From positions 1 through 41,168 of the forward strand of contig CAIUWO010001022.1 in the NCBI GenBank assembly GCA_903902895.1: a stretch of 41,168 bases of DNA, given 5' to 3'. Positions 3,485 through 40,764 of this stretch are shown here, in pieces. The notes under the pieces are model-generated. The model was given only the letters and a program-made list of their open reading frames with translations. It searched no databases and was not told the origin of the DNA. Both the position numbers and the translations under genes were made by a program. Source of the DNA: Candidatus Hydrogenedentota bacterium. GTDB taxonomy: Bacteria > Hydrogenedentota > Hydrogenedentia > Hydrogenedentales > CAITNO01. How positions within the stretch are numbered: the first letter of the stretch is position 1; each line of letters opens with the position of its first letter.

Positions 3485-3500
3485 TGGCACGCATGTTGCT
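3485..3500 (+). promoter_or_regulatory. Sigma-54 promoter (-24/-12) of the receiver/EPS-initiation genes
   Basis: TGGCACGCATGTTGCT matches the consensus TGGCAC-N5-TTGC(A/T) at every conserved position, with GG at 3486-3487 and GC at 3498-3499 at the required spacing. Transcription would begin near 3512, about 128 nt before the receiver gene ATG at 3640. An almost identical core (GGCACGCATGTTGCTA) recurs at 9055-9070 on the other strand. Confidence 0.85.
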
Positions 3501-4201: not shown

Positions 4202-4735
4202 GTGAAATTAAGCATAACGAGTCTGGGCCATCAGGGCGACGGCATTCAGCATGTCCTTGTGGTTGGCGCGAACGGGCGGTCGGTGCGTCTTGTCGAGTCC
4301 ATTGTCGGCAAGGGCTCCAGCGGTTGCCACATTGAGGGTTTTGTCGACGACGACGCGGACCGCCACGAGATATTGGAGGGGCTGGGGGTGCATTATCTTG
4401 GGCAAATCGCGGCGCTGGACCAATTGATGATCGACCGGGTCATAGACTGCGTGTATGTGTGCCTGCCGCTGCGCTCCGCCTATGACAAGGCGCAGCGTGT
4501 CGTGGACCTGTGCGGCACGGCGGGGGTGCCGGTGCTTATGGTGGCGGACGTGCTGCCGCTGCGGAGCGAGTCTGACGCATTGTGGTCCGTGGAGTCCCAG
4601 TATCCAGCGGACCAGGCGCAAGGGTCACGGGCGTCGCTTTCGTTCGCGCTCAAATCACCGCTGTCGCTGCTCTTTGCCGCGCTTTCCGCGGCGGTGTCCG
4701 CGGGACTGTCCGCCTCTCTATTTGGTCTGGTGTAA
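4202..4735 (+). CDS. Truncated CoA-binding-like Rossmann protein related to the EPS phosphotransferase
   Basis: A 177-residue protein starting at GTG, chosen because AAGGAG lies about 7 nt upstream. Residues about 17-115 (HVLVVGANGRS, GFVDDDADR, YLGQIAAL, VYVCLPLRS, MVADVLPLR) match block by block the middle domain of the full-length phosphotransferase encoded at 4831 (VLIVGANER, GVLDDDAER, YLGACSAL, LFIGLTLRS, LLADLFQS). That is the PF13727 CoA_binding_3 fold. The four N-terminal helices and the whole catalytic sugar-transferase domain are absent. The protein ends in one hydrophobic segment (about 153-177). It could be a duplication remnant that remains open, or a regulatory nucleotide-sugar-binding partner. 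Codon use looks like that of real genes here. Confidence 0.75.
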   Translation: MKLSITSLGHQGDGIQHVLVVGANGRSVRLVESIVGKGSSGCHIEGFVDDDADRHEILEGLGVHYLGQIAALDQLMIDRVIDCVYVCLPLRSAYDKAQRVVDLCGTAGVPVLMVADVLPLRSESDALWSVESQYPADQAQGSRASLSFALKSPLSLLFAALSAAVSAGLSASLFGLV

Positions 4736-4738: not shown

Positions 4739-4834
4739 ATGCATATCATGCAGGACAACCGGGCTGGAAGCGTGGGCGACCGCCTTTTTCAGCGCGCCCG
4801 GGCGCGTTGGGCAATCAGGGGAGGTAGCGGGTGA
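4739..4834 (+). CDS. Possible 31-residue ORF overlapping the phosphotransferase start
   Basis: ATG at 4739 opens a 31-codon frame (MHIMQDNRAG..., Arg-rich) whose TGA at 4832-4834 overlaps the GTG/ATG start of the phosphotransferase. The overlap would suit translational coupling. There is no strong SD and no family is recognised, so it may simply be chance. Confidence 0.2.
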   Translation: MHIMQDNRAGSVGDRLFQRARARWAIRGGSG

Positions 4835-6246
4835 TGCCGTCCAAGACGCGTGAACTGGGCGCGCTGGTGCCGGCGGCGCTCATGGTCGGCGATGTTGCCG
4901 GTCTTGCCGTCATGTACGCGTTGGCCGTGCGTTTCGGGTTGCCCGGAAACTTTTCGGTTGCGGTGGCGGCGCATTCCCCGCACCTTGTCTTCATCGCGGG
5001 CTGCTGGGTGATTGGTGCGGCCGAACACGGCTGTTGGCGGGTTCGGCGCATGGGTGAGATGGCCGCCCTGCTTCCGGCGCTGCTGAAGGCCTCGGCCTTT
5101 GCGGCGGCGTGCAGCATTCTGCTGATGGTGCTGTTCAACGGGGGCGGTGTGCAGGCGGGCTTTCTCGCAATACTTTACGGGGGCGGCATGGCGACGATCG
5201 CGACAGTGCGCCTTGCCTTGCTGGCGGCCACGGCCGCCCTTCACCGGGCGGGGTGCCTGCGGCGTGCGGTGCTGATTGTTGGGGCAAACGAGCGGACCAG
5301 ACAACTGGTGGAGCGGATTCGGGGCGGGCACGAATACACGGTGGTAGGGGTGCTTGATGACGATGCCGAACGCGGCGCGGACTTTTGCGGGGGTGACACG
5401 GCCTATCTGGGCGCGTGTTCGGCGCTGCCGGCGGTGCTTTCGGAAAAGCCCGTCGATGACCTGTTTATCGGGCTTACACTGCGGTCAAATTTCGAGGCTA
5501 TCCGCCGGATTGGGCAGGTGGCGGAACGGCACGGCCTGGCGGTGCATCTGCTGGCCGACCTGTTCCAGTCGCAGCATGCGCAGACCCTGGTGACGCAGAC
5601 AGGCGGCATCCCCATTCTCGCCCTGTCCCCCGTCCCTGAAAACAGGTTGGCGCTGGCGATGAAGCGGGTGATTGATTTTGTGGGGTCGTCCCTGCTTCTG
5701 GTGGTGTTCTTTCCCCTGTTTCTGATGACCGCCATTGTCATCAAGATGGATTCCAAGGGGCCCGTATTCTTTCTTCAGGAGCGTGCCGGCCGCAACCAGC
5801 GCCGGTTCAAAATGGTCAAGTTCCGCTCGATGGTGGCCAACGCGGAGGAGCTGCGCCAGGCGCTGGAGGCGCAGAACGAGGTGGCCGGCCCGGCGTTCAA
5901 GTTGAGCAGGGATCCCCGTGTGACCCGTGTCGGCGCGTTCATGCGCAAGCACAGCATCGACGAGCTGCCGCAACTCATCAACGTGTGGAGGGGTGAAATG
6001 AGTCTCGTCGGACCGCGTCCCGCGGTGGCGGCGGACGCGGGAAAGTACACACTCGAAGAACGGCGCCGCCTGAGCATGAAACAGGGGATGACGGGTTTGT
6101 GGCAGGTGAGCGGGCGCCACTCGCTTTCCTTTGAAGAGTGGCTGCGCCTTGACCTTGGCTATATCGATTCATGGAGCCTTTTCCAGGATTTTGTCATTCT
6201 CGTAAAGACGCTGCGCGAAGTCGTTCAGGGCAAGAACGCTGCGTGA
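4831..6246 (+). CDS. Polyprenyl-phosphate sugar-1-phosphate transferase (EPS initiation, WcaJ/PssZ type)
   Basis: A 471-residue integral membrane enzyme that starts EPS synthesis by moving a sugar-1-phosphate from a nucleotide sugar to undecaprenyl phosphate. Four hydrophobic helices span about residues 10-135. A Rossmann CoA_binding_3 domain follows (VLIVGANE, about 147-250). The catalytic bacterial sugar-transferase domain (PF02397, about 275-465) has its re-entrant helix after KRVIDFVG, FFLQERAGRNQRRFKMVKFRSM, the acidic IDELPQLINV, and MSLVGPRPA. All expected catalytic blocks are intact. The start is GTG at 4831 or ATG at 4834 behind GGGGAGGT. Glucose or galactose is the usual sugar, but the specificity here cannot be read. 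It lies downstream of its truncated relative at 4202. Confidence 0.93.
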   Translation: MMPSKTRELGALVPAALMVGDVAGLAVMYALAVRFGLPGNFSVAVAAHSPHLVFIAGCWVIGAAEHGCWRVRRMGEMAALLPALLKASAFAAACSILLMVLFNGGGVQAGFLAILYGGGMATIATVRLALLAATAALHRAGCLRRAVLIVGANERTRQLVERIRGGHEYTVVGVLDDDAERGADFCGGDTAYLGACSALPAVLSEKPVDDLFIGLTLRSNFEAIRRIGQVAERHGLAVHLLADLFQSQHAQTLVTQTGGIPILALSPVPENRLALAMKRVIDFVGSSLLLVVFFPLFLMTAIVIKMDSKGPVFFLQERAGRNQRRFKMVKFRSMVANAEELRQALEAQNEVAGPAFKLSRDPRVTRVGAFMRKHSIDELPQLINVWRGEMSLVGPRPAVAADAGKYTLEERRRLSMKQGMTGLWQVSGRHSLSFEEWLRLDLGYIDSWSLFQDFVILVKTLREVVQGKNAA

Positions 6247-6602: not shown

Positions 6603-6606
6603 ATGA
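6484..6606 (+). CDS. Possible 40-residue leader peptide coupled to the activator gene
   Basis: ATG at 6484 follows GGAGG with good spacing and opens a 40-codon frame (MKKARSMFPGMTREACTAP...). Its TGA (6604-6606) overlaps the activator's ATG at 6603 as ATGA. The activator itself has only a weak SD (GGGGGAGCC), so translational coupling would make sense. No family is recognised. The peptide is basic and shows no signal peptide. Confidence 0.35.
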   Translation: MKKARSMFPGMTREACTAPVRAARLHEPARIVRQAGGAGA

Positions 6607-8015
6607 GCAATATTGTTTCGCCTGACATGCCGGTGCTGGTGGTGGATGACGACGCGGGCGCCCTCAAGAGCACGGAGCGGTTGCTCGTGTCCGCGGGCAT
6701 CACCAATGTACATCCCTGCCAGGACCCACGGATGGTTCCCGAACTGCTTCAAACCAAGGACTTCTCGCTTGTGCTGCTCGACCTTTGCATGCCGCGCCTG
6801 TCCGGGGAGGACCTGCTGCCAAGCATTGTCACAGCGCACCCCGAGGTGCCGATCATCATCGTGACCGGTTACAACGAGGTGGAGACCGTGGTGCGCTGCA
6901 TGAAGGCGGGGGCTTATGACTATCTGGTCAAGCCGGTGGATCGCGGCCGGCTGATTTCGGTCCTGCGCCGCGCCATTGAACTTCGCTACCTGCGCCGCGA
7001 GGTTGAAATCCTCCGCGACCACAACGATTCCAACAGCCTGAAGTCGCCGGAGGCGTTTTCCCACATCGTCACCGGCAACGCCGCCATGCACGCCATTTTT
7101 CGGTACTGTGAGAGTGTCTCAAAAAGCCTGTGGCCCGTCCTTGTGACCGGTGAAACGGGGGTTGGCAAAGAGCTGATAGCCCGCGCCATCCACACCCTGA
7201 GCGGACGGACCGGGGCGTTTGTCGCCGTGAACGCGGCCGGTCTGGACGATGCGGTTTTTTCGGACACGCTTTTCGGCCATGTGCGGGGCGCATACACCGG
7301 CGCGGAGGAGTTCCGGAAGGGCCTGATAGAGCAGGCCGGGGCGGGCACGCTGTTCCTGGACGAGATAGGCGACCTCCCGCACACGTCGCAGGTGAAACTG
7401 CTGCGCGTAATCCAGGAGCACGAGTTCTATCCGCTCGGGTCCGACGTGGCCAAGAAGACGGACGCACGGCTGGTGTTTGCCACCAACACGGATCTTGACG
7501 CGCTGCAGGCTTCGGGGCATTTCCGCAGGGACCTTTACCAGCGGCTGAAGACCCATCATGTCCACGTGCCCCCGCTGCGCAAGCGCCCCGATGACATTCC
7601 ACTTCTTGTGAATCATTTTCTGGAGAGGGCCGCCACGGCCCTGCACAAGAAGAAGCCCTCCCCCCCGAAGGAACTCTACACGCTGCTGGCAACCTACATG
7701 TTTCCCGGAAACGTGCGGGAGTTGGAAAGCATGGTTTCTGATGCGGTTGCCAACCACGAGTCCCACATGCTGTCCATGGCGGCTTTTGAGGCGCGCATTG
7801 CCCGGGACCGCCCGGCGGACGGTGCTTCCATGGGGAATGGAAACGGTAACGGCCCCTATGCCTGCCTGGAAAGCCTGCCCACGCTGGCGCAGTCGAACGA
7901 ACTGCTGATCGCTGAGGCCATGCGCCGCGCCGAGGGCAACCAGACCCTTGCCGCCCGCCTGCTGGGCATTTCGCGTCCCGCGTTGAACCGCAGAATCAAC
8001 GAGCCCAAGCGCTAA
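6603..8015 (+). CDS. Sigma-54-dependent response regulator (NtrC family)
   Basis: A 470-residue enhancer-binding protein. The N-terminal receiver has VDDD at 14-17, phospho-acceptor D60 (VLLDLCMP) and K109. A linker helix leads to the AAA+ domain (about 150-385), with Walker A GETGVGKE (182-189), sigma-54 contact loop GAYTGA (228-233, Tyr in place of the usual Phe of GAFTGA), Walker B TLFLDEIGD (248-256), and a conserved LYQRL plus LRKRPDDI sensor region. The C-terminal Fis-type helix-turn-helix is NQTLAARLLGISRPALNRRI. All parts needed for ATP-driven activation of sigma-54 promoters are present. Three sigma-54 promoters in this window (3485, 9055, 34010) are its likely targets. No cognate kinase is encoded here. 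It resembles the EPS-locus regulators of PEP-CTERM/PrsR systems in context, but I do not claim that subfamily. Confidence 0.93.
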   Translation: MSNIVSPDMPVLVVDDDAGALKSTERLLVSAGITNVHPCQDPRMVPELLQTKDFSLVLLDLCMPRLSGEDLLPSIVTAHPEVPIIIVTGYNEVETVVRCMKAGAYDYLVKPVDRGRLISVLRRAIELRYLRREVEILRDHNDSNSLKSPEAFSHIVTGNAAMHAIFRYCESVSKSLWPVLVTGETGVGKELIARAIHTLSGRTGAFVAVNAAGLDDAVFSDTLFGHVRGAYTGAEEFRKGLIEQAGAGTLFLDEIGDLPHTSQVKLLRVIQEHEFYPLGSDVAKKTDARLVFATNTDLDALQASGHFRRDLYQRLKTHHVHVPPLRKRPDDIPLLVNHFLERAATALHKKKPSPPKELYTLLATYMFPGNVRELESMVSDAVANHESHMLSMAAFEARIARDRPADGASMGNGNGNGPYACLESLPTLAQSNELLIAEAMRRAEGNQTLAARLLGISRPALNRRINEPKR

Positions 8016-8044: not shown

Positions 8045-8710
8045 TCAGGACTCGCGCGGTTGAAGTATCCTCGCCGGAATTCCAACGGCCACGGCCCCAT
8101 CGGGCACATCGCACAGCACAACGGCATTCGCGCCGATTCGCGCGTGGTCGCCCACGCGTATGCCTCCGAGCACCTTGGCCCCGGCGCCTATGGACACGTC
8201 CCCGCCAATCCACGGCACCCGCAGGCTGTTCTCGCGTGTTCCGATGGTCACCTGCTGAAAGAAGATGCAGTTGGGGCCAATGCGGGCCTCGGGATGAATC
8301 ACGATGCCGTTGGGATGAAGAAGCTGCAGGCCGCCGTCAACATGGGCGTTGAGGGGGATGTCGGCGCCGGACACAACACTCCAGAAGCGATGTTTAAGCA
8401 CCTGGTACTTGCGGGGCACAATGTACAGCCACCCCCTCCTGGAACCCCAGTGCTGATAATTTCTTATGCACCGGAGCAACTGTCTTCCAGGGTCCCACCA
8501 TCGTGTCGGCGCCTCACGACTCCAGTCCGGTATGACCGCACTGATTTCCCCGTGCTGACTGGGTTTCACTGCGGCACGGACTGTTTCTAAACGCTTTTCC
8601 CGAGCCGCCGGGCCGACTTCCCCTACTTTCTGAAAAAGATCCGTAGAAATCCCCTGCACTTTTTCTAAATCTCGGGTATAATAGTTCCGTGCGCGGTCTG
8701 TCATGTACAC
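8045..8710 (-). CDS. Serine O-acetyltransferase-like left-handed beta-helix acyltransferase
   Basis: A 221-residue protein starting at GTG 8710 or the in-frame ATG at 8704. The C-terminal half is a hexapeptide-repeat left-handed beta helix (PF00132) with the CysE-type layout HPNGIVIHPEARIGPNCIFFQQVTIG, then IGAGAKVLGGIRVGDHARIGANAVV and the closing VPDGAVAVGIPARIL. The conserved His of the active site is visible in the HPNGIVIHPEA stretch. The N-terminal 100 residues are helical and basic. In EPS loci such enzymes usually acetylate sugars or precursors rather than making cysteine. A sigma-54 core at 9055-9070 points at this gene with a leader of about 335 nt. It is convergent with the activator gene, 29 bp apart. 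Confidence 0.85.
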   Translation of the reverse strand: MYMTDRARNYYTRDLEKVQGISTDLFQKVGEVGPAAREKRLETVRAAVKPSQHGEISAVIPDWSREAPTRWWDPGRQLLRCIRNYQHWGSRRGWLYIVPRKYQVLKHRFWSVVSGADIPLNAHVDGGLQLLHPNGIVIHPEARIGPNCIFFQQVTIGTRENSLRVPWIGGDVSIGAGAKVLGGIRVGDHARIGANAVVLCDVPDGAVAVGIPARILQPRES

Positions 8711-8820
8711 ACGTTCATCTCCGCCCGCATACCGGCTGAGTAAGTTTATTTGTTTACAGGTCTACTTAATGGCGTTTCTGGCAAATCACCATAAACACCC
8801 TCTATAAGTGCATTTGTATC

Positions 8821-8956
8821 GGCGTGCCCAGAGCTTTCAGCCCCAGGCACGCCGCCCGCCTTCGCAAAGCGCGTGACTCGCATCCACCAACGCCGTGCGG
8901 AGTGAGACTCTCTAGCACTGTCAGAGTGCTTGTAAACGGCTCTGAGGAGTTTCACT
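8821..8956 (+). ncRNA. Structured leader element, copy A (orphan)
   Basis: P1 is a perfect 8-bp stem, GGCGTGCC (8821-8828) with GGCACGCC (8846-8853). P2 pairs CTTCGCAAAGCG (8860-8871) with CGCCGTGCGGAG (8891-8902) at 10 of 12 positions, around a 19-nt loop CGTGACTCGCATCCACCAA. A small hairpin AGCACT/AGTGCT follows (8914-8930). AGTGAGACTC (8901-8910) can pair without a mismatch (one G-U) with GAGTTTCACT (8947-8956), covering the SD. A GTG at 8957 is correctly spaced from GGAG, but the frame behind it does not look like a gene. I cannot assign the fold to a known riboswitch family. Confidence 0.55.
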
Positions 8957-9054
8957 GTGTCTTTACATATGTCTAAGCAAAGTCTACATCATGCCGCCAA
9001 ACCTTCTTTGGTTGCCCGACCCCACTGGGGGTTATGTCGTTCCACCCATTTAGT

Positions 9055-9070
9055 AGCAACATGCGTGCCG
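9055..9070 (-). promoter_or_regulatory. Leftward sigma-54 promoter toward the LbH acyltransferase
   Basis: Read on the minus strand, CGGCACGCATGTTGCT has the invariant GG (9069-9068) and GC (9057-9056) at the right spacing; only the first consensus T is replaced by C. Sixteen bases (GGCACGCATGTTGCTA) are identical to the promoter at 3485. Upstream on the same strand, GGGTTGCGACAAAC with CAAACC 13 bp farther out (9086-9112) resembles the palindrome at 3440. The next gene leftward starts at 8710. Confidence 0.7.
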
Positions 9071-9085
9071 TTTTCTTCAGTTTGT

Positions 9086-9112
9086 CGCAACCCATTTTCC
9101 ATCAAAGGTTTG
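9086..9112 (-). promoter_or_regulatory. Candidate activator site upstream of the 9055 promoter
   Basis: On the minus strand CAAACC-N13-GGGTTGCG ends about 15 bp before the -24 element. It matches the reverse-complemented palindrome at 3440-3470 in both half-sites and nearly in spacing. It is probably bound by the same activator; this is inference from similarity only. Confidence 0.4.
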
Positions 9113-9453
9113 GGGTGTGACTGCACAAGGGTGGAGAATCCAAAAGGGGTGTCCATTCTTGAAGAGGCGGCGCCAGTTTCCAGTTGTAAGTTAAACCGAG
9201 GAAAGGGATTGGGAACATGTGAAGCAACGCAACACAGTGAAAAATGTGACATGAGTTTTGCCGGAGTCCCGAGTCATCCCGTGGCAAACGAAGAGGACGG
9301 CTCATGGAGACGGAATATTGTCCGGATGGAGGAGCCACTCTAGCGCAGATAGCGGTCGTTTGTGTGCTGCAACCATCGCCTGGATGGCGGCACACATTGA
9401 CAGGCCCCCGTCTGCCTGCAACGTTCCTACAGTTTAATCCCCTTTTGCACGTA

Positions 9454-9592
9454 CGGCGTGCCTGCAGTTAGTGGCTGCCGACACGCCTTCCCGCCTTCGC
9501 AAAACGCGTGACTCGCATCCACCGACGCTTTGCGGATGAGACCCTCACAAGGAGCACCGTTAGTTCACGAACCCCTTAAGGAGTCTCTCTTC
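9454..9592 (+). ncRNA. Structured leader element, copy B (upstream of the 9593 gene)
   Basis: P1 is GGCGTG (9455-9460) with CACGCC (9482-9487). P2 pairs CTTCGCAAAACG (9495-9506) with CGCTTTGCGGAT (9526-9537) at 10 of 12 positions. The 19-nt loop CGTGACTCGCATCCACCGA differs from copy A at one base. GAGAC (9538-9542) can pair with GTCTC (9583-9587), beside the SD AAGGAG (9578-9583). The stem replaces the two mismatched middle positions of copy A by A-U pairs, which favours an RNA stem over a DNA site. Confidence 0.55.
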
Positions 9593-12500
9593 ATGATGCA
9601 AACAACACTAGTCAATCACCGCCATATTCCCGTGTGTCGGGCGATACTTTGCACGTCTTTGGTGCTGGCCTTCTTCGTTGCCAGCCTTCCGGCTTGGGCG
9701 GCCACCGCGCCGGTGCTGCAATTCTCGCCGTCCGGCGTGAATTTTGGCGCCGTCAAGGTGGGCCAAAGCGCCGGCGCATCGGTGGTGGTCAGCAATAGCG
9801 GCACGGCCAGGCTTCTGACGCGCCTGATTCAAATCACCGGCACGCAGCGCAGCCAGTTCAGTTCAAACGACAGGGACTGGTACTCGCTGGCGCCGGGCGC
9901 GTCCGTAAAGTTTACTGTGACCTACAAGCCGACGGTTGCGGGCAGCGCGACCGCGTCTTTCCAGGTCACCTCAAATGACCCTCGGGGTGTTCTCGGAATC
10001 ACCCTGACCGGCCAGGGAACGACCGTCACCGCCGTCCCGAACCTGACCGTGTCGCCGACCTCCCTATCCTTTGGGAGCGTTGCCGTCGGTGGCACGAGCG
10101 CGGCCTCGACCGTGCAGTTGAGCAACACGGGCACGGCGGCGCTCAGCGTCACCTCGCTGGCCCTGACCGGCGCGAACACGGGTTGTTTTACCCTGTCCGC
10201 GCCCGCGCTGCCGCTGCAAATCGCGGCGGGCGCGTCCGCAAGCGTTTCCGTGATGTGTAACCCGACCGCCTCGGGCGCGCGCGCCGCCGCTCTGTCCATC
10301 GGGTCCAACAACCCCGGCGGCACCGTGACCGTGGCCCTCTCCGGCCAGGGAACGGCCCCGAACCTGACCGTGTCGCCGACCTCCGTTTCCTGTGCCAGTG
10401 CCGCAGTGGGCGCGACGAGCGCGGCCTCGACCGTCCAACTGAGCAACACGGGCACCGCCGCGCTCAGTGTGACATCGCTGACCCTGACCGGCGCCAACGC
10501 CAGTGAATTTGTCCTTTCCGCGACCACGCTTCCGCTGCAAATCGCGGCAGGCGCGTCCTCAAGCGTTTCCGTGATGTGCAAGCCGACCGCGGCGGGCGCG
10601 CGCACGGCCACCCTCGCCATCGGGTCCACCAATCCCGGCGGCACGGTCACGGTGCCCCTTTCGGGCCAGGGAACGACAGCCGCCGCCCCCAAGGCGCAGC
10701 TTTCGCCGACCTCACTTGATTTCGGTGCTGTCGCCATCGGGCAGAGCGCCGCAAAGACGTTCACGGTCCTGAGCGTCGGCACCCAGACGCTGCAGACGAG
10801 CAACATCCAAATCACCGGCGCTCAGGCGGCCGCGTTCACGTCGAACGACGCCGACTGGTACACGCTGGGAGCGGGCATATCGGTCACCTTCTCCGTGACG
10901 TTCACGCCGACCGCCGCCGGTGCGGCCAACGCGCAGATTGAGGTCACCTCCAATGATCCGGCGGGCAAAACCATATTGCCGCTGACCGGGTCGGGCACCG
11001 GCACCGCAACCACGGCGCCAGCCCTTGCCGTCTCGCCGGCCTCAGTCTCCTTTGGCAGTGTTGCCGTCGGCGCGACCAGCGCGGCCTCAACGGTAACGCT
11101 AAGCAACACCGGCACGGCCGCGCTCAGCGTTACGGCGCTGACCCTGGGCGGCACAAACGCCGCGGAATTCACGCGGTCAACCCCCGCGCTGCCGCTGCAA
11201 ATCGCCGCGGGCGCGTCTTCCAGCCTCTCGCTGACCTTCAAGCCCACGGCCTCGGGCGCGCGCACGGCGTCGTTGACCATAGCCTCCAACAACCCGGCCG
11301 GAAACGTCTCCGTGGCGCTGACCGGGTCTGGAACCGCCACGACTTCCCAGCCCCTGCTGCAGGTCGCGCCGGCCTCGGTCTCCTTTGGCAGTGTCGCCGT
11401 CGGCGCCACCAGCGCGGCGTCAACCGTGCAGTTGAGCAACACCGGCACGGCCGCCCTGAGCATCACGTCGCTCACGCTGTCCGGCACCAACGCCGCGGAA
11501 TTCACGCGGTCAACCCCCGCGCTGCCGCTGCAGATTGCCGCGGGCGCGTCTTCCAGTCTCACGCTGACCTTCAAGCCCACAGCTTCGGGCACACGCACTG
11601 CGTCATTGACCATTGCCTCCAACAACCCGGCCGGAAACGTCACTGTGGCGATTACCGGGACCGCCCCGGCAGCCCCGGGCACAGGTTACCCGAACGACGG
11701 GTCGGTGCTGGGCACCAACCTGAGTCCCATATCCGACTGGAGTCCTGAATGGGCCTTTGTCGACTGCTTTAAGACCTCGCGCGACTGGGTTTCCGGCGAG
11801 TTGTGGGTCTTCCAGGATTCCCGGACGCTTCCGCTGGACGCCAACGGCTGGCCAACCTCGCTCCAGTCGGGCCAGGTTGCACGAAGCCTGCTGTTCTGGG
11901 AACAGGTGAACACCTATCCGAGCGGTGACTACATCGTGCTCTACGACGGTGCGGGCACCCTTGCCTACCAGGGCGCCGCGACGAAGAAGTCGGGCACCGC
12001 AGGCCGCGACGTGGTCACTGTGGACGCATCCAAGGGCGGTTGGCAGTTGCTGATTACCGCCACAACCCCCGGCAACCATGTCCGCAATGTCCGTGTGCTC
12101 ATGCCCGGCGGCGCGTCGGCCACGGACCTCTATTCCTGGTACGGCGACGCGGCCTCGTGCCCCAGCGGGGACTACAGATCCTTTGAGCAGACCTACCAGA
12201 CCCAGCCGTTCCATCCCATGTTCCTCGACACGATTAAGAATTACAAAGTGCTGCGCTTCATGGACTGGATGGACACCAACAACTCCGAGCAGGTGAACTG
12301 GACGGATCGCCCGACCCCGGCGGACGCGCGATGGAGCCTGAAAGGTGTGCCCGTGGAGACCATGTGCGCCCTGGCCAACACGATCCACGCGGACCCGTGG
12401 TTCAACCTTCCCCATCTGGCGAGCGACGACTACCTGGCGAAATTTGCCGCAGTGGTCCGCGACCAGCTGACCCCCGATCTGCACGCCTATATCGAGTATT

Positions 12501-13213
12501 CCAACGAGGTGTGGAACGGCCAGTTTCTCCAGGCGGGGTACGCCCAGCAGCGGGGTGTGGCGCTTGGGCTCGATTCAAACGCCTACGTGGCCCAGTCGTC
12601 CTACACATCGTTGCGCAGCGTGCAAATGTTTAGCATCTTTGAACAGGTGCTGGGCGGCACGTCGCGGCTCAAGCGGGTGATGGCAACGCAGGCCGCGGGC
12701 TGGTACCTGGGCGAGGTGCAGCTCTCCTACAACAACGCCTACCAGCATGCCGATGTGCTCGCCATCGCGCCCTACTTTGGCACCGAATACGGCAGCCCGA
12801 CCAATGCGCCGAACACCCAGAACATGACCGTGGCACAGTTGCTGGCGTCGATCAACAGCACCGAACTGCCCACCGTCTATACCTGGATGGACGCCAATGC
12901 CAAACTCGCCGCCAAGTACGGGCTGGAACTGGTGGCCTATGAGGGCGGCCAGTCCCTGATGGGCTATTGGGGCACGGAGAACAACGACACCCTCACGGCG
13001 CTGTACAACGCGACCAACCGCGACCCGGGCATGGGGCAGATCTACGCCAACTACCTGACCAAGTGGAGGTCGTACGGCGGCGGCATGTTCATCCACTATC
13101 TCAACTGCCTGAACAACACGAAGTGGGGTTATTGGGGCACGATTGAGCGACTCGACCAGACGCAGACACCAAAATTCACGGCGATCCAGCAGTTTATTGA
13201 GAACCACCGCTAG
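9593..13213 (+). CDS. Secreted six-repeat choice-of-anchor-D protein with NEVWN glycosidase-like domain
   Basis: A 1206-residue exported protein. The start is ATG 9593, nine bases after AAGGAG; the frame is open farther upstream, but that part is the leader element. The signal peptide is about residues 1-37 (hydrophobic LCTSLVLAFFVASLPAWAA). Six ASH/choice-of-anchor-D beta-sandwich repeats of about 110 residues follow (each opening with xLxVSPxSVSFGSVAVG; about 38-690). The C-terminal 500 residues start at TGYPNDGSVLGTNLS and carry AYIEYSNEVWN and LVAYEGGQS. Those two Glu positions suit the acid/base and nucleophile of a clan GH-A-type (beta/alpha)8 glycosidase; similar proteins are often annotated only as cellulose-binding. 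It probably acts on or binds the EPS outside the cell. A terminator follows at 13233. Paralogue: 13582. Confidence 0.85.
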   Translation: MMQTTLVNHRHIPVCRAILCTSLVLAFFVASLPAWAATAPVLQFSPSGVNFGAVKVGQSAGASVVVSNSGTARLLTRLIQITGTQRSQFSSNDRDWYSLAPGASVKFTVTYKPTVAGSATASFQVTSNDPRGVLGITLTGQGTTVTAVPNLTVSPTSLSFGSVAVGGTSAASTVQLSNTGTAALSVTSLALTGANTGCFTLSAPALPLQIAAGASASVSVMCNPTASGARAAALSIGSNNPGGTVTVALSGQGTAPNLTVSPTSVSCASAAVGATSAASTVQLSNTGTAALSVTSLTLTGANASEFVLSATTLPLQIAAGASSSVSVMCKPTAAGARTATLAIGSTNPGGTVTVPLSGQGTTAAAPKAQLSPTSLDFGAVAIGQSAAKTFTVLSVGTQTLQTSNIQITGAQAAAFTSNDADWYTLGAGISVTFSVTFTPTAAGAANAQIEVTSNDPAGKTILPLTGSGTGTATTAPALAVSPASVSFGSVAVGATSAASTVTLSNTGTAALSVTALTLGGTNAAEFTRSTPALPLQIAAGASSSLSLTFKPTASGARTASLTIASNNPAGNVSVALTGSGTATTSQPLLQVAPASVSFGSVAVGATSAASTVQLSNTGTAALSITSLTLSGTNAAEFTRSTPALPLQIAAGASSSLTLTFKPTASGTRTASLTIASNNPAGNVTVAITGTAPAAPGTGYPNDGSVLGTNLSPISDWSPEWAFVDCFKTSRDWVSGELWVFQDSRTLPLDANGWPTSLQSGQVARSLLFWEQVNTYPSGDYIVLYDGAGTLAYQGAATKKSGTAGRDVVTVDASKGGWQLLITATTPGNHVRNVRVLMPGGASATDLYSWYGDAASCPSGDYRSFEQTYQTQPFHPMFLDTIKNYKVLRFMDWMDTNNSEQVNWTDRPTPADARWSLKGVPVETMCALANTIHADPWFNLPHLASDDYLAKFAAVVRDQLTPDLHAYIEYSNEVWNGQFLQAGYAQQRGVALGLDSNAYVAQSSYTSLRSVQMFSIFEQVLGGTSRLKRVMATQAAGWYLGEVQLSYNNAYQHADVLAIAPYFGTEYGSPTNAPNTQNMTVAQLLASINSTELPTVYTWMDANAKLAAKYGLELVAYEGGQSLMGYWGTENNDTLTALYNATNRDPGMGQIYANYLTKWRSYGGGMFIHYLNCLNNTKWGYWGTIERLDQTQTPKFTAIQQFIENHR

Positions 13214-13232
13214 GTTTCGCCCCTTTTAGACG

Positions 13233-13274
13233 AGCCCCGTCCTCCGCGTGCGGAGGGCGGGGCTTTCGCCTTTT
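13233..13274 (+). terminator. Rho-independent terminator after the six-repeat gene
   Basis: AGCCCCGTCCTCCGC and GCGGAGGGCGGGGCT form a stem of about 15 bp with one mismatch and a 2-nt turn (13233-13264). It is followed by TTTCGCCTTTT. Its position 20 bp past the stop codon fits transcription termination. Confidence 0.85.
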
Positions 13275-13486
13275 GGGAGCTGGAAGAACACGCCATGCAC
13301 GGAGACGGAAGCTTCGGGAATAAACCCAACCAGAGGAAGATTATCTTTAGCAGCCTTTCTTTGACATAGGCTGAGTTTGATGAGTTTAGCCCACTGAGGC
13401 CCTGTGTGGATTTAAGAAGTGTGGAGTACAAGGGTCGGGGTGAGGCAGGTGGCGTTCAACAATGAGAAGTATAAGATTAATCCCGT

Positions 13487-13581
13487 CTGTGCAGGGCTTG
13501 TGACTCGCGACCACCATAGCACTGCGAAGTGAGACTCTGGAAATTGGCGTTAAGGCTGCAAACCAATGAGGAGTCTCGGTC
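13487..13581 (+). ncRNA. Structured leader element, copy C (upstream of the 13582 gene)
   Basis: P2 pairs CTGTGCAGGGCT (13487-13498) with AGCACTGCGAAG (13518-13529) at 10 of 12 positions, although most stem bases differ from copies A and B. The 19-nt loop TGTGACTCGCGACCACCAT keeps the GTGACTCGC and CCACC cores. GAGACTC (13531-13537) is perfectly complementary to GAGTCTC (13571-13577), directly over the SD GAGGAG of the gene at 13582. No equivalent of P1 is obvious. The element would be an untranslated RNA leader controlling translation start. Confidence 0.6.
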
Positions 13582-15540
13582 ATGAAGTTGTCCAACGTGA
13601 GGTTTGAAGCCCTGCATTCGCTTCGGCGGGTGTCTTCGGGATTGCTTGTGCTTGCCTTCCTTTCCGGTTGCCCCAAAGTTTCCCCCAATAACGTAGCTTT
13701 CGGCAATATTCCACTGGGAATGGGTGCTGCAACCCGGACAGTGACGCTGGAAAACAGGTCCACCGGCAACCTTGCCGTGAGTTCCATGAAAGTAGCCGGC
13801 GCGCACAAGGCGGACTATCGTCTGTCGGCGCCCGCCACCCCCCTGGAAGTGCTCCCGAGCGAGGAGCTGGGTGTCGGCGTGGCATTCTACCCCCTGGCAT
13901 TGGGCACACGGACAGCCGCGATCGAAATTACGTCGGGTCCGTCCAACACCGTCCTGAGTGTGCCGCTCTCCGGTCAGGGGGTGCCAAAGGCCGCCAACGG
14001 ACTGAACTATGCCAATGACGGGTCGGTCGTGGGCACCAACCTGAGTCCAATTTCCGACTGGAGTCCCGAATGGGCGTTCTTGGACTGTTTTAAGAGTTCC
14101 CGGGCCTGGATCTCAGGCACGATAGCCACTTTCCAAGACTCGCGAACGCTCCCGCTTGACGCGAACGGCTGGGTGACCTCGCTGCAGACGGCCCAGTGCG
14201 CCAAGACCCTGCTGTTTTGGGCGCAGCAGGGCACCTATCCGAGCGGCGATTATGTGGTGCTCTACGATGGCCTTGGCAAGTTGGAGTATCGCGACGCGGC
14301 GACGCGAATTCAGACCGCGGCGGGGAGGGATGTGGTCCGTGTGGATGCGTCCAAGGGCGGCTGGCAACTGTGGATTACCCAGACAGACCCCGCCAATTAC
14401 ATCCGTAATATCCGGGTTGTTATGCCCGGCGGCGGGTCACCCCGGGACCCCCATTCGTGGTGGGCCACCGCGGCCTCCTGCCCCTACCCCGACTTCCAGC
14501 CGTTTGAGCAAAGCTATCAGACACTGATATTCCACCCGGCCTTTCTCAAGACCGTCCGAAATTACAAAGTCCTCCGCTTCATGGACTGGATGAGCACGAA
14601 CAATTCCACACAGCAGAACTGGACGGACCGTCCAACCCCGCTGGATGCCCGCTGGACGTACCGGGGCGTTCCCGTTGAAACCATGTGCGCCCTCGCCAAC
14701 ACGCTGCACGCCGACCCTTGGTTCTGCCTGCCCCACATGGCCACCGACGATTATATGAAACAGTTTGCGACGGCCCTGCGCGACTACCTGTCCCCGGAGC
14801 TGCGCGCCCACATTGAGTACTCCAACGAGGTGTGGAATGGCAGTTTCGGCCAGGCAGGCTACGCGCAGCAGCAGGGGCTTGCACTGAAACTGAACACGAA
14901 CCCGTATATTGCGCAGGCCTATTTCACCGCCCGGCGCAGTATGGAGATGTTCGCAATTTTCACGGAGGTTCTCGGCGGGACGCAGCGGCTGAGGCGGGTG
15001 CTGGCCACACAGGCCGCTGGCTGGGGCATGGGCGAACAGGAAATCAAGTACATGAACGCCTATCAGCAGGCGGACCTGCTGGCCATTGCGCCCTATATCG
15101 GGCTTGAGTTCGGCAGCCCGGCCAACCAGGCCGCCACGCAGGCCATGACGGTGGACCAACTGTTTGCCGCGATCAACAACACCGCGCTGCCGGAGGTTTA
15201 CGCGTGGATCGACGCCAATGCGTCCCTGGCCAGGAAGTACGGGCTTGAACTCGCCTGCTACGAGGGCGGGCAGTCCCTGAACGGATACTACGGGGTGGAG
15301 AACAACAACGCCATCAACACCCTGTTCGACGCCGCCAACCGCGATCCGCGCATGGGGCAGGTCTACACCGCCTACCTGAACGCATGGAACGCGCGGGGCG
15401 GGGGCCTGTTCGTCCATTACCTGAACTGCCTGAACTACTCGAAATGGGGGCGCTGGGGTGCGCTTGAGCGTCTTGACCGGGCCACCGCATCGGCCCCCAA
15501 ACACGCCGCCCTGCAGCAGTTCATTGAAGACCACCGCTGA
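13582..15540 (+). CDS. Lipoprotein with one ASH domain and NEVWN glycosidase-like domain
   Basis: A 652-residue protein starting at ATG 13582, eight bases after GGAG. The signal sequence ends in a lipobox LSGC with C30, so it is a predicted lipoprotein. One choice-of-anchor-D/ASH-type beta-sandwich (about 31-135, FGNIPLGMGAATRTVTLENRSTG start) leads into a 510-residue domain parallel to that of the 9593 protein. Both share TNLSPISDWSPEWAF, FMDWM, NWTDRPTP, IEYSNEVWN, YEGGQSL and GLFVHYLNCLN. The two Glu in NEVWN and YEGG are candidate catalytic residues of a clan GH-A-type glycosidase. It is a tandem paralogue with a surface anchor and five fewer repeats. It is convergent with the acyltransferase, 12 bp apart. 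Confidence 0.85.
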   Translation: MKLSNVRFEALHSLRRVSSGLLVLAFLSGCPKVSPNNVAFGNIPLGMGAATRTVTLENRSTGNLAVSSMKVAGAHKADYRLSAPATPLEVLPSEELGVGVAFYPLALGTRTAAIEITSGPSNTVLSVPLSGQGVPKAANGLNYANDGSVVGTNLSPISDWSPEWAFLDCFKSSRAWISGTIATFQDSRTLPLDANGWVTSLQTAQCAKTLLFWAQQGTYPSGDYVVLYDGLGKLEYRDAATRIQTAAGRDVVRVDASKGGWQLWITQTDPANYIRNIRVVMPGGGSPRDPHSWWATAASCPYPDFQPFEQSYQTLIFHPAFLKTVRNYKVLRFMDWMSTNNSTQQNWTDRPTPLDARWTYRGVPVETMCALANTLHADPWFCLPHMATDDYMKQFATALRDYLSPELRAHIEYSNEVWNGSFGQAGYAQQQGLALKLNTNPYIAQAYFTARRSMEMFAIFTEVLGGTQRLRRVLATQAAGWGMGEQEIKYMNAYQQADLLAIAPYIGLEFGSPANQAATQAMTVDQLFAAINNTALPEVYAWIDANASLARKYGLELACYEGGQSLNGYYGVENNNAINTLFDAANRDPRMGQVYTAYLNAWNARGGGLFVHYLNCLNYSKWGRWGALERLDRATASAPKHAALQQFIEDHR

Positions 15541-35846: not shown

Positions 35847-37988
35847 TCACCCCTGCGGCGTGAGCCGCACCATGGCGCATCCGCGTTGCAGCGGCACGTT
35901 GAGCCGCATTTTCGGCGCTGACTCCACTGCCCCGATACGGGTCCATGCCTCCGCGCCGGGATACATGGCTTCGGCGGTCAGTGTCCCGGTTCCCGCGCCT
36001 ACCGGCAGTCCGCGCAGGACCACCGTCACCCCCTTGGCGTCGCCGCCGAAGGTGACGGGCATCGCAAAGCCGCCGGGCACGGCGAAGAGGTTTGCCTTGG
36101 CGGCGTTGTTTTCCACGGCCACCACGTGCGCCTGCAGGACCCAGTGCTTGCCCCGCATGGCGTCGAGCATGGGGCCGTAGTCGAGATAGTACTTGTCCGC
36201 CCATTCACTGGGCACGATGGTATGGTCGTTGCCGGAGAGGGGCACGGTGGGGAATACGCCCATGTACATGTAGCGTTGGAAGAATCCGTCCGGGTCGGGC
36301 TTAAGGGTGTCCACGCTGACGGTCCAGCCGATGGCCGGCTTGTGCAGGGTGAGCAGGCCCGTTGCGTTGAGTGCACGGCCGTTGTCGGCAAACTCGCAGT
36401 AGATGCCGTCCACATGCCGGAGCAGGTCGATGCGCTTGAGATGGTTGTTGACGAAGACAAACTTGCCGGCGTCGTGGAAGATGGGGGCCAGTTTGGGCAT
36501 CAGGTCGCGCCAGGAAGTGTAGAGCAGCCGGCAGGGCTTGCCGTCGACCCAGCTCTCCCCGTCGTCGGCGTTCGGATTGGCCATGCGCAGCCAGTCCATG
36601 CGGTCGATGCACACGCCGGACGAGGCGGGCAGTTTCTCCACGTGCCGCCGCGCCTGGTCGAGCAGGAACTTCTGATAGTCGGGACCACCCGGATCCATGG
36701 CGACGGCGGCGCCCCAGGTGTTCCAGTATCCGCCGTTCGGCAGAGACAGCACCCCATCGGCCACCCGAGTATAGGTGAAGTCATTGGCGTTGCGCCACGC
36801 ATCCGGGTCCTTGTCCGCGCCGGGCGTGACCGCGGCGGCTCCTTTGAGGTTCACGCCGAACTCGGTAACGTTGAAGTAGTTGAGCACATAGAACCCGTAG
36901 CCGCGCATCTTCTCCGAATAGGCGCGCATGCGCGCGACGGAGGACCAGTTGTCTTCCTGGGGCAACGGCTGTCCGCAGGCCTTGTCGTTGAAACGGAACC
37001 ACCGGTCGTCGTCACCGGGCACGGGCGGCATAAACATGCCCATGTAGGGGAAGTCGAAGCTCGCCTTCCAATTCACGCGAAACGCCATCTTGCGGAACTT
37101 CTCCGCGTCGAGGTCGCCCTCATACGCGGAATAGGCGCCGCATCCGGCAATGTCGTGGGCGGCGGGCAGTGGTGGCTCGAAATATTCCGGATAGCGGGCT
37201 GCCATCCAGCCGAGCGCCGCGCGCGGGTCGGCCGGATGCGCCACAAGGTCCATGGCGAACCGGACCGGCCGGTCCTTGCCGATGCGGTGGTTCAACCGGA
37301 CAAAGGTTATCCCTCCGTCCTTGGCGGTGCGCAGTTCCAGGTCCAGCAGGGCGTCGTCGGGCGAGAGGACCAGGCTTATCCCCTGGTCCTGCGCGGGATA
37401 AAGCAGCGTCGCAACAGGCATGCAGAAGGTGTCGCCGTGCAGCGGGCAGTAGCTGACAAGCTTCTTCTTCTTCTGGGTGAATGCGGGGGCGCCATAGTAC
37501 CAGGTGCGGTTCTGGGGAGGCTGCGCTTCCATCGGGTCGTGCCAGCCCTCATCCGAGTGGAGCGGATCGGACCATGCCGTCCAGAACCGGGCGTCGTCGT
37601 TCACCGGCATCTGGAGCCGGGTGACGATTTTCGCGGAAAAGGCGCTTTCCCCGGCGATCTCCACCTCCCAACGGATGCTGTCCCGCTGGGGCGAGAAGCG
37701 CTCGACCACGGTGCAGGACTGCCCCAGCTTGTCGTCCGCAAGCGTCCGACGGAACGTCACCGCGCCGTTTTCAGAAAGGGTTCGGACCGCTTCTCCTGTA
37801 GGGACGGCATTCCCGATTTCCGTGAACCCCGGTGTCGTGTGAAACTCGCCGTTGGGCCCCAGCCTAATCGCGGCAACCCCGCCGTTCGCAGACAGCTGGA
37901 CGGCAATGTTGCCCGATTCGGAAGTCAACGTGGTCGGTTCACCGGCGGCAAACGCGCAAATGAAGGCAAGACAGACTTGGGTTAGCAT
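35847..37988 (-). CDS. Secreted ~713-residue glycosidase-like protein, copy 1
   Basis: 713 residues from ATG 37988, chosen because AGGAGA lies 8 nt upstream and a short signal peptide follows (MLTQVCLAFICAFAAG); the longer frame upstream runs through a repeat. I do not recognise a named family. An N-terminal beta-sandwich (ESGNIAVQLSANGGVAAIRLG, a galactose-mutarotase-like opening) leads to a central (beta/alpha)-rich part: NWKASFDFPYMGMFMPP, YGFYVLNYFNVTEFG, SGVCIDRMDWLR, FVFVNNHLKRIDLL and GIYCEFADNGRALN. A C-terminal beta domain follows (VLRGLPVGAGTGTL...MVRLTPQG). The IDRMDW Asp residues are candidate catalytic positions as in GH31/36/101-like TIM barrels. Copy 2 lies just upstream at 38144. 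Confidence 0.75.
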   Translation of the reverse strand: MLTQVCLAFICAFAAGEPTTLTSESGNIAVQLSANGGVAAIRLGPNGEFHTTPGFTEIGNAVPTGEAVRTLSENGAVTFRRTLADDKLGQSCTVVERFSPQRDSIRWEVEIAGESAFSAKIVTRLQMPVNDDARFWTAWSDPLHSDEGWHDPMEAQPPQNRTWYYGAPAFTQKKKKLVSYCPLHGDTFCMPVATLLYPAQDQGISLVLSPDDALLDLELRTAKDGGITFVRLNHRIGKDRPVRFAMDLVAHPADPRAALGWMAARYPEYFEPPLPAAHDIAGCGAYSAYEGDLDAEKFRKMAFRVNWKASFDFPYMGMFMPPVPGDDDRWFRFNDKACGQPLPQEDNWSSVARMRAYSEKMRGYGFYVLNYFNVTEFGVNLKGAAAVTPGADKDPDAWRNANDFTYTRVADGVLSLPNGGYWNTWGAAVAMDPGGPDYQKFLLDQARRHVEKLPASSGVCIDRMDWLRMANPNADDGESWVDGKPCRLLYTSWRDLMPKLAPIFHDAGKFVFVNNHLKRIDLLRHVDGIYCEFADNGRALNATGLLTLHKPAIGWTVSVDTLKPDPDGFFQRYMYMGVFPTVPLSGNDHTIVPSEWADKYYLDYGPMLDAMRGKHWVLQAHVVAVENNAAKANLFAVPGGFAMPVTFGGDAKGVTVVLRGLPVGAGTGTLTAEAMYPGAEAWTRIGAVESAPKMRLNVPLQRGCAMVRLTPQG

Positions 37989-38044
37989 CAGTATCGTCTC
38001 CTGTGGCCAAAGCATATCCTTTGGGACCGGGATACCGCCAATTT

Positions 38045-38134
38045 GGACTGCGGCGGCAACGACGCCGCTTTGACTCATATCTCGCGTTGGATTAGCCAAA
38101 GCGGTGTCGTCGCTGCGCTTTGCCACCGCAGTCC
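38045..38134. repeat. Long hairpin repeat between the two paralogues
   Basis: The left arm GGACTGCGGCGGCA...ACGACGCCGCTTTG (38045-38072) and the right arm (38097-38134), read in reverse complement, match over almost all of it except a 10-base insertion in the right arm, around a 24-nt loop. It looks like a dispersed REP/MITE-type element that inserted after the gene duplication. It sits within the leader/promoter region of the copy-1 gene. Confidence 0.6.
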
Positions 38135-38143
38135 ACACAGGCA

Positions 38144-40282
38144 TTATCCCTGCGGCGTGAGCCGCACCATGGCGCACTTGCGTTGCAACGGCACGGTCAC
38201 GCTCATTTTCGACGTGATATCCATTGTGCCAATCACCGACCATTTTTCCGCGCCGGGATAGAGGACCTCAGCGTTCACCTTTTTCACCCCGTCGCCCACG
38301 GGCAACCCGCGCAGTACCGCGACCACTTCTTTGGCATCGCCGCCGAAGGTTATGGGCATCACAAAGCCGCCGGGCACGGCGAAGAGATTTGCCTTGGCCG
38401 CGTCGTTCTCCACGGCCACCACGTGCGCCTGCAGGACCCAGTGTTTGCCGCGCATGGCGTCGAGCAGGGGCCCGTAGTCGAGGTAGTACTTCTCCGCCCA
38501 ATCGTCGGGGATGATGGTGTGGTTGTTGCCCGCGAAGGGTGCCGTGGGGAACACGCCCATGTGCAGGTGGCGCTGGAAGTAGCCGTCCGGGTCGGGCTGG
38601 AGGTCCTCCACCTTGGCCGTCCAGCCGATGGCCGGTTTGTGCACCGTGAGCAGGCCCGTTGTGTTGAGCGCACGGCCGTTGTTGGCATACTCGCAGTAGA
38701 TGCCGTCCACATGCCGCAGCAGGTCAATGCGTTTGAGAAGGTTGTTGACGAAGATGAACTTGCCCGCATCGTGGAAGATGGGCGCCAGCCTGGGCATCAG
38801 TTCACGCCAGGAGGAATAGGGCAGGCGGCAGGGCCTGCCCTCGAACCAGCTTTCCCCATCGTTGACGTTCGGGTTGGGGACGCGCAGCCAGTCCAGGCGG
38901 TCAATGCACACACCGGACGAGGCGGGCAGTTTCTCCACATGACGCCGGGCCTGGTCGAGCAGGAAGGTCTGGTAATTCGGTCCGCCCGGGTCCATGCCCA
39001 CCGCTCCGCCCCAGGTATCCCAGTATTTGCCCTCCGGGGTGAGCAACAGTCCGTCGGCCACCCGGGTATACGTGAAGTCGTTGGCGTTGCGCCATGCCTC
39101 CGGGTTCTTGTCGGCGCCGGGCGTCACCGCCTTTGCCCCTGTGATGTTCCAGCCGAACTCGGTGACGTTGAAGTAATTGAGCACGTGAAATCCGTAGCCC
39201 CGCATTTTTTCCGAATAGGCGTTCACGCGCGCAACCGACGACCAGTTGTCCTCGCCGGGCACCGGCTGGCCAAAGGCGTTTTCGTTGAAGCGAAGCCACC
39301 GGTCATTGTCGCCGGACACCGGCGGCAGGAACATGCCCATGTAGGGGAAATCGAAGCTGGCCTTCCAGTTCACACGAAAGGCCATCTTGCGGTACTTCTC
39401 CGCGTCCAGGTCGCCCTCATAGCTGGAATAGGCGCCGCATCCGGCCATGTCATGCGCGGCAGGAAGGGGCGGTTCGAAGTAGTCCGGATACCGCGCGGCC
39501 ATCCAACCGAGCGCCGCCCGCGGGTCGGCGGGATGGGCGACCAGGTCCAGGGCGAAGCGGACGGGCCGGTCTCTGGCGATGCGATGGTTGAGCCGGGCAA
39601 AGGCAATGCTGCCATGCTTGGTGGTGCTCAGTTCCAAATCGAGCAGCGCGTCGTCAGGCGAGAGGACCAGGCTGAGCCCGCTATCCTGCTCCGGATACAA
39701 CAGCGTTGCCACGGGCATGCAGAAGGTGTCGCCATGCACCGGAATGTAGCCGATCATGGGGTTCCGCCTGTTGAACACCGGTGCCCCATAGCACCAGGTC
39801 TGGTTTTGTTTGGGCTGCGGCACCATCGGGTCGTGCCAGCCCTCATCCGAATGCAGCGGGTCCGACCATGCCGTCCAGAACAGGATATCGTCGTTTGCCG
39901 GCATTTGGAGCCGGGTGACGATTTTTGCGGAGAAGGCATTCTTCCCGGTGACCTCCACCCCCCAGCGGATACTGTCCCGTCCGGGGGAAAACCGTTCAAC
40001 CACAGTGCAGGCTTGTCCGGCCTTGACGTCTGCAAGCGTCCTCCGGAATGCTGCCCCGCCATTTTTACAGGGAATGCGAACCGTCCCGCCCGAAGGCACG
40101 GCGTTTCCGATTTCCGTGCGGCCCGGTGCCGCCTGAAACACGCCGTCAGCCCCCAGCCTGACAGCGGTAACCCTGCCGTTCACAGACAGTTGGACGGCAA
40201 TATTGCCCGATTCGGAGGTCACGGTGACCGGGCCGCCGGCGGTAAACGCACAAAGGACCACAAGGCAGGCATGGAACAGCAT
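38144..40282 (-). CDS. Secreted ~712-residue glycosidase-like protein, copy 2
   Basis: 712 residues from ATG 40282 with AGGAGA upstream; signal peptide MLFHACLVVLCAFTAGG. Colinear with copy 1 over the full length, with no large indels and the same blocks (ESGNIAVQLS, TAWSDPLHSDEGWHDPM, NWKASFDFPYMGMF, VLNYFNVTEFG, SGVCIDRLDWLR, GIYCEYANNGRALN, HWVLQAHVVAVEN, RKCAMVRLTPQG). A plausible sigma-70 promoter lies on the minus strand: TTGCAC, 17-bp spacer, TATGCT (near 40351-40312). The AGGATATGCTT element is also kept before copy 1. The pair is a tandem duplication. The function is unknown; an extracellular glycan-active enzyme is the best guess. Confidence 0.75.
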   Translation of the reverse strand: MLFHACLVVLCAFTAGGPVTVTSESGNIAVQLSVNGRVTAVRLGADGVFQAAPGRTEIGNAVPSGGTVRIPCKNGGAAFRRTLADVKAGQACTVVERFSPGRDSIRWGVEVTGKNAFSAKIVTRLQMPANDDILFWTAWSDPLHSDEGWHDPMVPQPKQNQTWCYGAPVFNRRNPMIGYIPVHGDTFCMPVATLLYPEQDSGLSLVLSPDDALLDLELSTTKHGSIAFARLNHRIARDRPVRFALDLVAHPADPRAALGWMAARYPDYFEPPLPAAHDMAGCGAYSSYEGDLDAEKYRKMAFRVNWKASFDFPYMGMFLPPVSGDNDRWLRFNENAFGQPVPGEDNWSSVARVNAYSEKMRGYGFHVLNYFNVTEFGWNITGAKAVTPGADKNPEAWRNANDFTYTRVADGLLLTPEGKYWDTWGGAVGMDPGGPNYQTFLLDQARRHVEKLPASSGVCIDRLDWLRVPNPNVNDGESWFEGRPCRLPYSSWRELMPRLAPIFHDAGKFIFVNNLLKRIDLLRHVDGIYCEYANNGRALNTTGLLTVHKPAIGWTAKVEDLQPDPDGYFQRHLHMGVFPTAPFAGNNHTIIPDDWAEKYYLDYGPLLDAMRGKHWVLQAHVVAVENDAAKANLFAVPGGFVMPITFGGDAKEVVAVLRGLPVGDGVKKVNAEVLYPGAEKWSVIGTMDITSKMSVTVPLQRKCAMVRLTPQG

Positions 40283-40401
40283 GGACGGTGTCTCCTGTAT
40301 ACTCAAGCATATCCTGCCAACCTTGGGCGTGCAATAGCTTCCTGTCGGCAGGCGCGGGGGAGGTGCCCGGCCGGCGGGGTGTTTTGCCGGGCGTGCCGCA
40401 C

Positions 40402-40431
40402 TTGACACGGGGTCGGTTTTTTTGGTAGTTT
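40402..40431 (+). promoter_or_regulatory. Sigma-70-type promoter of the tRNA-tuf operon
   Basis: A consensus -35 TTGACA (40402-40407) and a -10-like TAGTTT (40426-40431) with an 18-bp spacer lie 50 bp upstream of the first tRNA. The spacer contains a T7 run. Confidence 0.6.
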
Positions 40432-40483: not shown

Positions 40484-40559
40484 GCTGGCGTAGCTCAGTT
40501 GGTAGAGCAGCTGACTTGTAATCAGCAGGTCGGGGGTTCGATTCCCTTCGCCAGCTCCA
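40484..40559 (+). tRNA. tRNA-Thr (anticodon TGT), CCA encoded
   Basis: Acceptor GCTGGCG pairs with CGCCAGC, D-loop AGCTCAGTTGGTAGAGC, anticodon stem-loop CTGACTTGTAATCAG with TGT, T-loop GGTTCGATTCC, discriminator T and CCA at 40557-40559. First tRNA of the Thr-Tyr-Gly-Thr-tuf cluster. Confidence 0.97.
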
Positions 40560-40707: not shown

Positions 40708-40764
40708 TTTTGAAAACCAGGCTTCCCGGCCCGTTTTGGCCCGGAACCTTTGGGAATACTTGCT

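Follow-up and report, generated by a model that had tools for sequence, protein, structure and literature searches.

A candidate translation-controlling mRNA leader before predicted secreted hydrolase genes in an exopolysaccharide locus of Hydrogenedentota

Described leaders and the Hydrogenedentota locus

The closest described logic is that of the psl mRNA of Pseudomonas aeruginosa, whose Shine-Dalgarno sequence is paired with an anti-Shine-Dalgarno sequence lying upstream, in a stem that RsmA stabilises (PMC2984543). The leader described here likewise belongs to a polysaccharide cluster and carries an anti-Shine-Dalgarno stem, but its sequence is unrelated to that of psl, the RsmA/CsrA regulator was not found in this genome, and the parts of the psl report used here mention no hairpins resembling the P0 and P1 elements defined below (PMC2984543). 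Translational riboswitches share the same two-part layout of an aptamer and a Shine-Dalgarno-sequestering platform; in the present leader, in contrast, the apical loop is not kept outside the genus and the distribution is narrow. Candidate structured RNAs from comparative genomics, as far as the set in PMC2864571 is represented here, rest on evidence of the same type and grade (covariation and gene association), although the present leader has far fewer representatives and no match in Rfam 15. Hydrolases are frequent in exopolysaccharide clusters according to the sections of PMC9075953 drawn on here, and the PslG-type glycosidases treated there are, like the proteins encoded downstream of this leader, hydrolases in a polysaccharide locus. 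The latter, which we call NEVWN proteins, differ from these glycosidases in being secreted, in carrying choice-of-anchor-D repeats, and in having no sequence match to any solved structure, and their GH-A-like assignment is predicted.

The window, i.e., the whole stretch of 41,168 nucleotides analysed here, includes genes for a priming glycosyltransferase, Wza, Wzc, WecG, a flippase, and several glycosyltransferases (other features are listed in Table 1). A search for the TIGR02602 exosortase returned nothing above the cut-off, and a PEP-CTERM system is thus not shown. A partial CoA_binding_3 open reading frame (ORF) (4202-4735) adjoins the full-length priming glycosyltransferase gene (4831-6246) and is possibly a partial duplicate. 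Two long minus-strand ORFs (798 and 754 amino acids) at 35847-40408 have no Pfam or NCBIfam match.

The C-terminal domain of the NEVWN proteins has no match in Pfam or, by sequence, among solved structures. A structural model built from nine homologues (pLDDT 82) found GH-A enzymes as the best folds, e.g., galactanase 6gpa (E = 1e-5), with TM-scores of only ~0.3 to 0.55. The motifs SNE.WN and YEGGQ are invariant among the NEVWN homologues, and we take the NE of the former and the E of the latter to fit the acid/base and nucleophile positions of clan GH-A. The domain is therefore predicted, on the basis of this model, to be a clan-GH-A glycoside hydrolase. The products had been labelled surface proteins in the initial annotation and can now be described more precisely as secreted proteins carrying a clan-GH-A-like hydrolase domain. 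A GC-rich inverted repeat lies 3′ of the NEVWN1 stop codon (13233-13264), and similar terminator-like repeats follow the homologues in two congeners (G001 and G002).

Anatomy and covariation of the leader

Table 1. Positions of the leader elements and neighbouring features in the window
Feature	Positions	Strand	Remarks
NtrC-type sigma-54-dependent response regulator of the locus	6603..8015	+	
Hexapeptide-repeat acyltransferase	8045..8710	-	copy 1 would be antisense in its 5′ region
Copy 1, P0 hairpin (CGGCGUGCC...GGCACGCCG)	8820..8854	+	z = -5.5 vs dinucleotide shuffles; covaries with other copies
Copy 1, P1 hairpin, conserved loop of 19 nt	8861..8901	+	core 8873-8888
Copy 1, P2 helix AGUGAGACUC / GAGUUUCACU over GGAG Shine-Dalgarno	8901..8956	+	ends at GTG at 8957
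Open frame after copy 1; probably no real gene	8957..9343	+	no Pfam match; all three codon positions equally conserved vs the orthologous region
Sigma-54 promoter-like site, one mismatch	9055..9070	-	points left through copy 1 toward the hexapeptide acyltransferase gene
Copy 2, P0 hairpin	9455..9487	+	z = -2.9; covariation
Copy 2, P1 hairpin	9496..9536	+	core 9508-9523
Copy 2, P2 helix GAGACCC / GAGUCUC over NEVWN1 Shine-Dalgarno	9538..9587	+	
NEVWN1, predicted secreted	9593..13213	+	choice-of-anchor-D repeats and C-terminal GH-A-like domain
Copy 3, P1 hairpin	13488..13528	+	core 13500-13515
Copy 3, P2 helix GAGACUC / GAGUCUC over NEVWN2 Shine-Dalgarno	13531..13577	+	Shine-Dalgarno 2% unpaired
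NEVWN2, predicted secreted	13582..15540	+	one choice-of-anchor-D domain and GH-A-like domain

The initial annotation had reported three copies of a stem flanking a loop of exactly 19 nt, two of them directly before NEVWN genes, and these observations hold. The sites at 8873, 9508, and 13500 are the only perfect matches to the core GTGACTCGCRWCCACC, not just in the window but across the 7.6-Mb assembly. Each of the three copies (c1, c2, and c3) forms a hairpin, P1, with a loop of exactly 19 nt and the core GUGACUCGCNNCCACC, and 84.8% of the P1 cells of their alignment are paired (86 to 87% with six or seven copies). Copies 2 and 3 are those that directly precede the NEVWN genes. The structured region is larger than first described, as P0 (c1 and c2) and P2 had been missing from that description. 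In copies 1 and 2 the order is P0, a short C-rich linker (CCCGCC), P1, and P2. P0 is a hairpin of ~35 nt located 5′ of P1; most copies share the position of an internal mismatch, and copy 3 has no P0.

P2, present in all three window copies, is a helix 3′ of P1 of the form GAGACUC...GGAGUCUC-AUG that pairs with the Shine-Dalgarno sequence. Its arms, GAGACUC (GAGACCC in copy 2) with GAGUCUC or GAGUUUC, cover a GGAG Shine-Dalgarno sequence 7 to 9 nt upstream of the start codon, which is computed to be 65 to 99% paired owing to P2. The whole-leader fold of c3 is no better than that of shuffled sequences. P2 alone is weak evidence, because a 7-bp helix over the Shine-Dalgarno sequence is also found before ~6% of mechanically called ORFs (11/195); its weight as evidence comes from its conservation.

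Two covarying columns had also been claimed. They are real and correspond to P1 columns 8/36 and 12/32 of our alignment (A1), but the covariation in the three window copies alone was matched by 128 of 500 column shuffles, so relatives were needed. With seven copies, from the window and the genomes described below, 6 of the 11 P1 pairs have two-sided changes, a number reached in 4 of 500 shuffles, and the P1 covariation score was reached by none of the 500. In this alignment 91% of cells pair, compared with 34 to 53% for slid structures. P0 displays two-sided changes at 9 of its 12 pairs (manual alignment of five copies) and folds with z-scores of -2.9 to -6.4 relative to shuffles. The loop is 88 to 100% identical among the six copies of the genus, whereas the P0 and P2 regions are only 22 to 81% identical, a pattern that points to purifying selection on the loop. 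Counts of G-U versus A-C wobbles are tied, and about equal numbers of cells pair on either strand. We infer the RNA sense solely from gene position and chose the plus strand because c2, c3, and the copies B and G058 introduced below all end at a NEVWN start codon.

Homologues in related genomes

No leader copy tested matched a family in Rfam 15, and the best unrelated scores were far under the gathering threshold, consistent with the earlier description of the element as unassigned. That annotation had also proposed a covariance-model search of related genomes, which recovered three copies in a congener and one in a more distant genome. A model built from the three window copies (R1) scored these at 98 to 99 bits and found nothing beyond them in the window's own 7.6-Mb genome. 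In the congener (G001; MAG AlinenLipids_bin-3554, Candidatus Hydrogenedentes), R1 identified three copies, A, B, and C, on a single contig (CAITNO010000076.1) with scores of 81, 68, and 46 bits. Copies A and B are in tandem, 640 nt apart, as in the spacing of c1 and c2, and B precedes the NEVWN1 orthologue. Their flanks show c1 to be the orthologue of A, and c2 that of B; therefore, the duplication of the copy is older than both species. Copy C is an orphan located after a sigma-54 response-regulator gene, in inverted orientation relative to A and B. It has lost P2, which is thus not needed everywhere. Relative to the window, the block of NEVWN and acyltransferase genes on this contig (C76) is inverted with respect to the response-regulator gene, and copies A and C lie near the ends of the rearranged stretch. 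No leader precedes NEVWN2 in the congener or either NEVWN gene in the second congener (G002).

All 68 genomes of the order were searched for NEVWN homologues, and the regions upstream of these homologues were scanned with a six-copy model from the window and the congener (R2). On the 47.7 kb around NEVWN homologues without the loop motif, R2 produced a single outlier, in G058, of a different family, at 23.8 bits (E = 0.0017; next match, 13.6 bits), a score to be read with the caution that E-values of small models are rough, that the model was applied where a match was hoped for, and that genome-wide scans yield chance matches of 22 to 31 bits. The match ends at 5445, beside the ATG of a NEVWN homologue (ORF 5449-1442), and this single copy has the order P0, CGCCCGCC linker, P1, GAGACUC...GGAGUCUC, AUG. 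The outer stem of its P1 is ACUGCA/UGCAGU. Of the sequence, only the P2 arms, the GCA/UGC of P1, and the CGCCCGCC linker are common to G058 and the genus copies. We regard this predicted copy as convincing through its exact position and its independent P0. The constant cores reported initially accordingly apply within the genus and do not extend to G058, where the P1 loop differs although P0, P1, the linker, and P2 are retained.

In total, seven copies are known from three species, all Hydrogenedentota. Across 84,980 species, a scan for the exact pattern returned the congener and otherwise a single Deltaproteobacterial site, which lies inside a long ORF. No further copies were detected in 386 genomes (relatives and other phyla), nor in viral contigs, plasmids, and phages, and the complement of the loop does not occur in the window's own genome besides the copies. 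Several matches were rejected. One in G030 lies inside an open frame of 1071 residues, one in G064:C152 (28 to 31 bits) falls, as we read the translation, in the sequence coding for the C-terminal end of a pyruvate kinase on the opposite strand, one in G058:C140 is coding sequence, and the pattern matches in G051 and G031 are followed by no start codon with a P1 hairpin. The leader thus appears, so far, to be narrowly distributed, being tied to one gene family and its locus in three species of Hydrogenedentota. Within this range, the comparison of sequences establishes the copies, their predicted helices, the compensatory changes, the position at the start codon, and the recurrence at a homologous gene in another family.

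No convincing gene follows copies c1, A, and C. The frames after c1 and A evolve without coding constraint; for the ORF after copy 1 (8957-9343), the orthologous region served as reference, and the situation contrasts with that of copies 2 and 3.

Proposed mechanism and alternative explanations

We favour, with a probability of roughly 0.6, the reading of this element as a cis-regulatory mRNA leader, absent from Rfam, through which translation of the secreted GH-A-like hydrolases of an exopolysaccharide locus is controlled. A stable helix lies over the Shine-Dalgarno sequence and is kept in homologues, as in leaders that sequester this site. In the default fold, P2 would pair GAGACUC with GAGUCUC over the GGAG Shine-Dalgarno sequence and keep translation low, with P1 as the input domain and P0 as a 5′ brace. 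A binder at the exposed conserved P1 loop or at the P1-P2 junction would then shift the P2 equilibrium, so that the ribosome-binding site is opened or locked; the conserved loop is the likely contact of the regulator. With the plus strand taken as RNA, we infer that P2 represses translation and that P1 is the sensor. A switch through pairing of the loop with the Shine-Dalgarno region (GACUC with GAGUC) was rejected, because copy C and G058 have not retained this pairing.

The leader would be of a known kind, a translation-controlling 5′ untranslated region, and is apparently undescribed in the open-access subset of the literature covered, a non-exhaustive scope. For a little-studied phylum, it provides a structured leader RNA associated with predicted matrix-cutting enzymes of a polysaccharide locus, with defined helices, controls, and genes now given for seeking the trigger. 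A ligand or RNA partner, if found, would reveal how these bacteria control when their own matrix is cut.

An orphan riboswitch, in which P0 and P1 would form a pocket for a ligand such as a nucleotide sugar or cyclic dinucleotide and P2 would be the expression platform, seems to us unlikely. It would agree with the two-domain layout of aptamer-like hairpins and a Shine-Dalgarno-sequestering helix, with a 16-nt loop core that is nearly invariant within the genus, with the lack of a matching Rfam class, and with a conserved, covarying structured domain in what its position suggests is a transcribed 5′ untranslated region. However, the loop differs in G058, so nucleotides that would contact a ligand are not kept across distant members, and a fixed ligand pocket in the P1 loop is weakened. 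Riboswitch classes usually recur at many unrelated operons, whereas these copies are restricted to a single locus in two of the genomes and to a single gene in the other.

Every copy before a gene, including that of G058, sits exactly at the start codon, P0 changes freely in sequence while its pairing is kept, and only three copies exist in 7.6 Mb, with none in plasmids, phages, or viral contigs. These features argue against a DNA-level element, be it palindromes for recombination or regulator binding or a small repeat spread by local duplication, which we hold to be improbable despite the strand-neutral wobble counts, the clustering of copies in one locus, and the inversion of C relative to A and B. 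The initial annotation had likewise preferred a conserved structured leader to a mere DNA site, and the homologues and compensatory changes in related genomes agree with it.

The orphan copies invite an antisense explanation, to which we give slightly less credence again. The sigma-54 promoter at 9070-9055 would yield an opposite-strand transcript of copy-1-type elements, and this RNA would pair through the loop with the NEVWN1 and NEVWN2 leaders. Copies c1, A, and C are without a clear gene of their own and share a sigma-54-like site on the opposite strand at an aligned position ~100 nt further on (with three mismatches after A), the loop is constant in the orphan copies too, and 19 loop bases are identical between c1 and c2, as are 18 between A and B. 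Against this, c1 and c3 differ within the loop and have their longest identity, 11 nt, in P2, and G058 has a single copy. The opposite-strand sites are only a lead, because sigma-54-like sites in the window are no more numerous than expected by chance. A paired-copy circuit, of similarly low probability, would have the sigma-54 promoter between copies 1 and 2 produce the opposite-strand acyltransferase mRNA, whose 5′ region, holding the leader complement, would contact the P1 loop of the hydrolase mRNAs and set their translation. If true, it would explain a loop that is frozen in all genus copies, orphans included, and free in the single-copy G058.

Attenuation by a leader peptide, encoded by a frame GTG ACT CGC ... 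TGA from the loop to P2, is very doubtful: its start and stop are common to five of the six genus copies, but no Shine-Dalgarno sequence precedes the frame, substitutions mostly affect the first and second codon positions and alter the residue, the stop is lost in c2, and the frame is absent in G058. CsrA/RsmA-type control, in which the protein would bind GGA motifs and stabilise the Shine-Dalgarno hairpin, is scarcely credible despite the GGA in the Shine-Dalgarno region and the stem hiding this site in the part of the psl leader report used here (PMC2984543), because no CsrA was detected in the 95%-complete genome by a search that was positive in Escherichia coli, Bacillus subtilis, and Thermotoga maritima.

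Two further sigma-54 promoter-like sites were observed in the window, a perfect one (TGGCACGCATGTTGCT) at 3485-3500 on the plus strand ahead of the priming glycosyltransferase region, and one with a single mismatch at 34025-34010 on the minus strand, preceding the Wza/Wzc genes. The right end of the window is occupied by a cluster of four tRNA genes (40484-40939).
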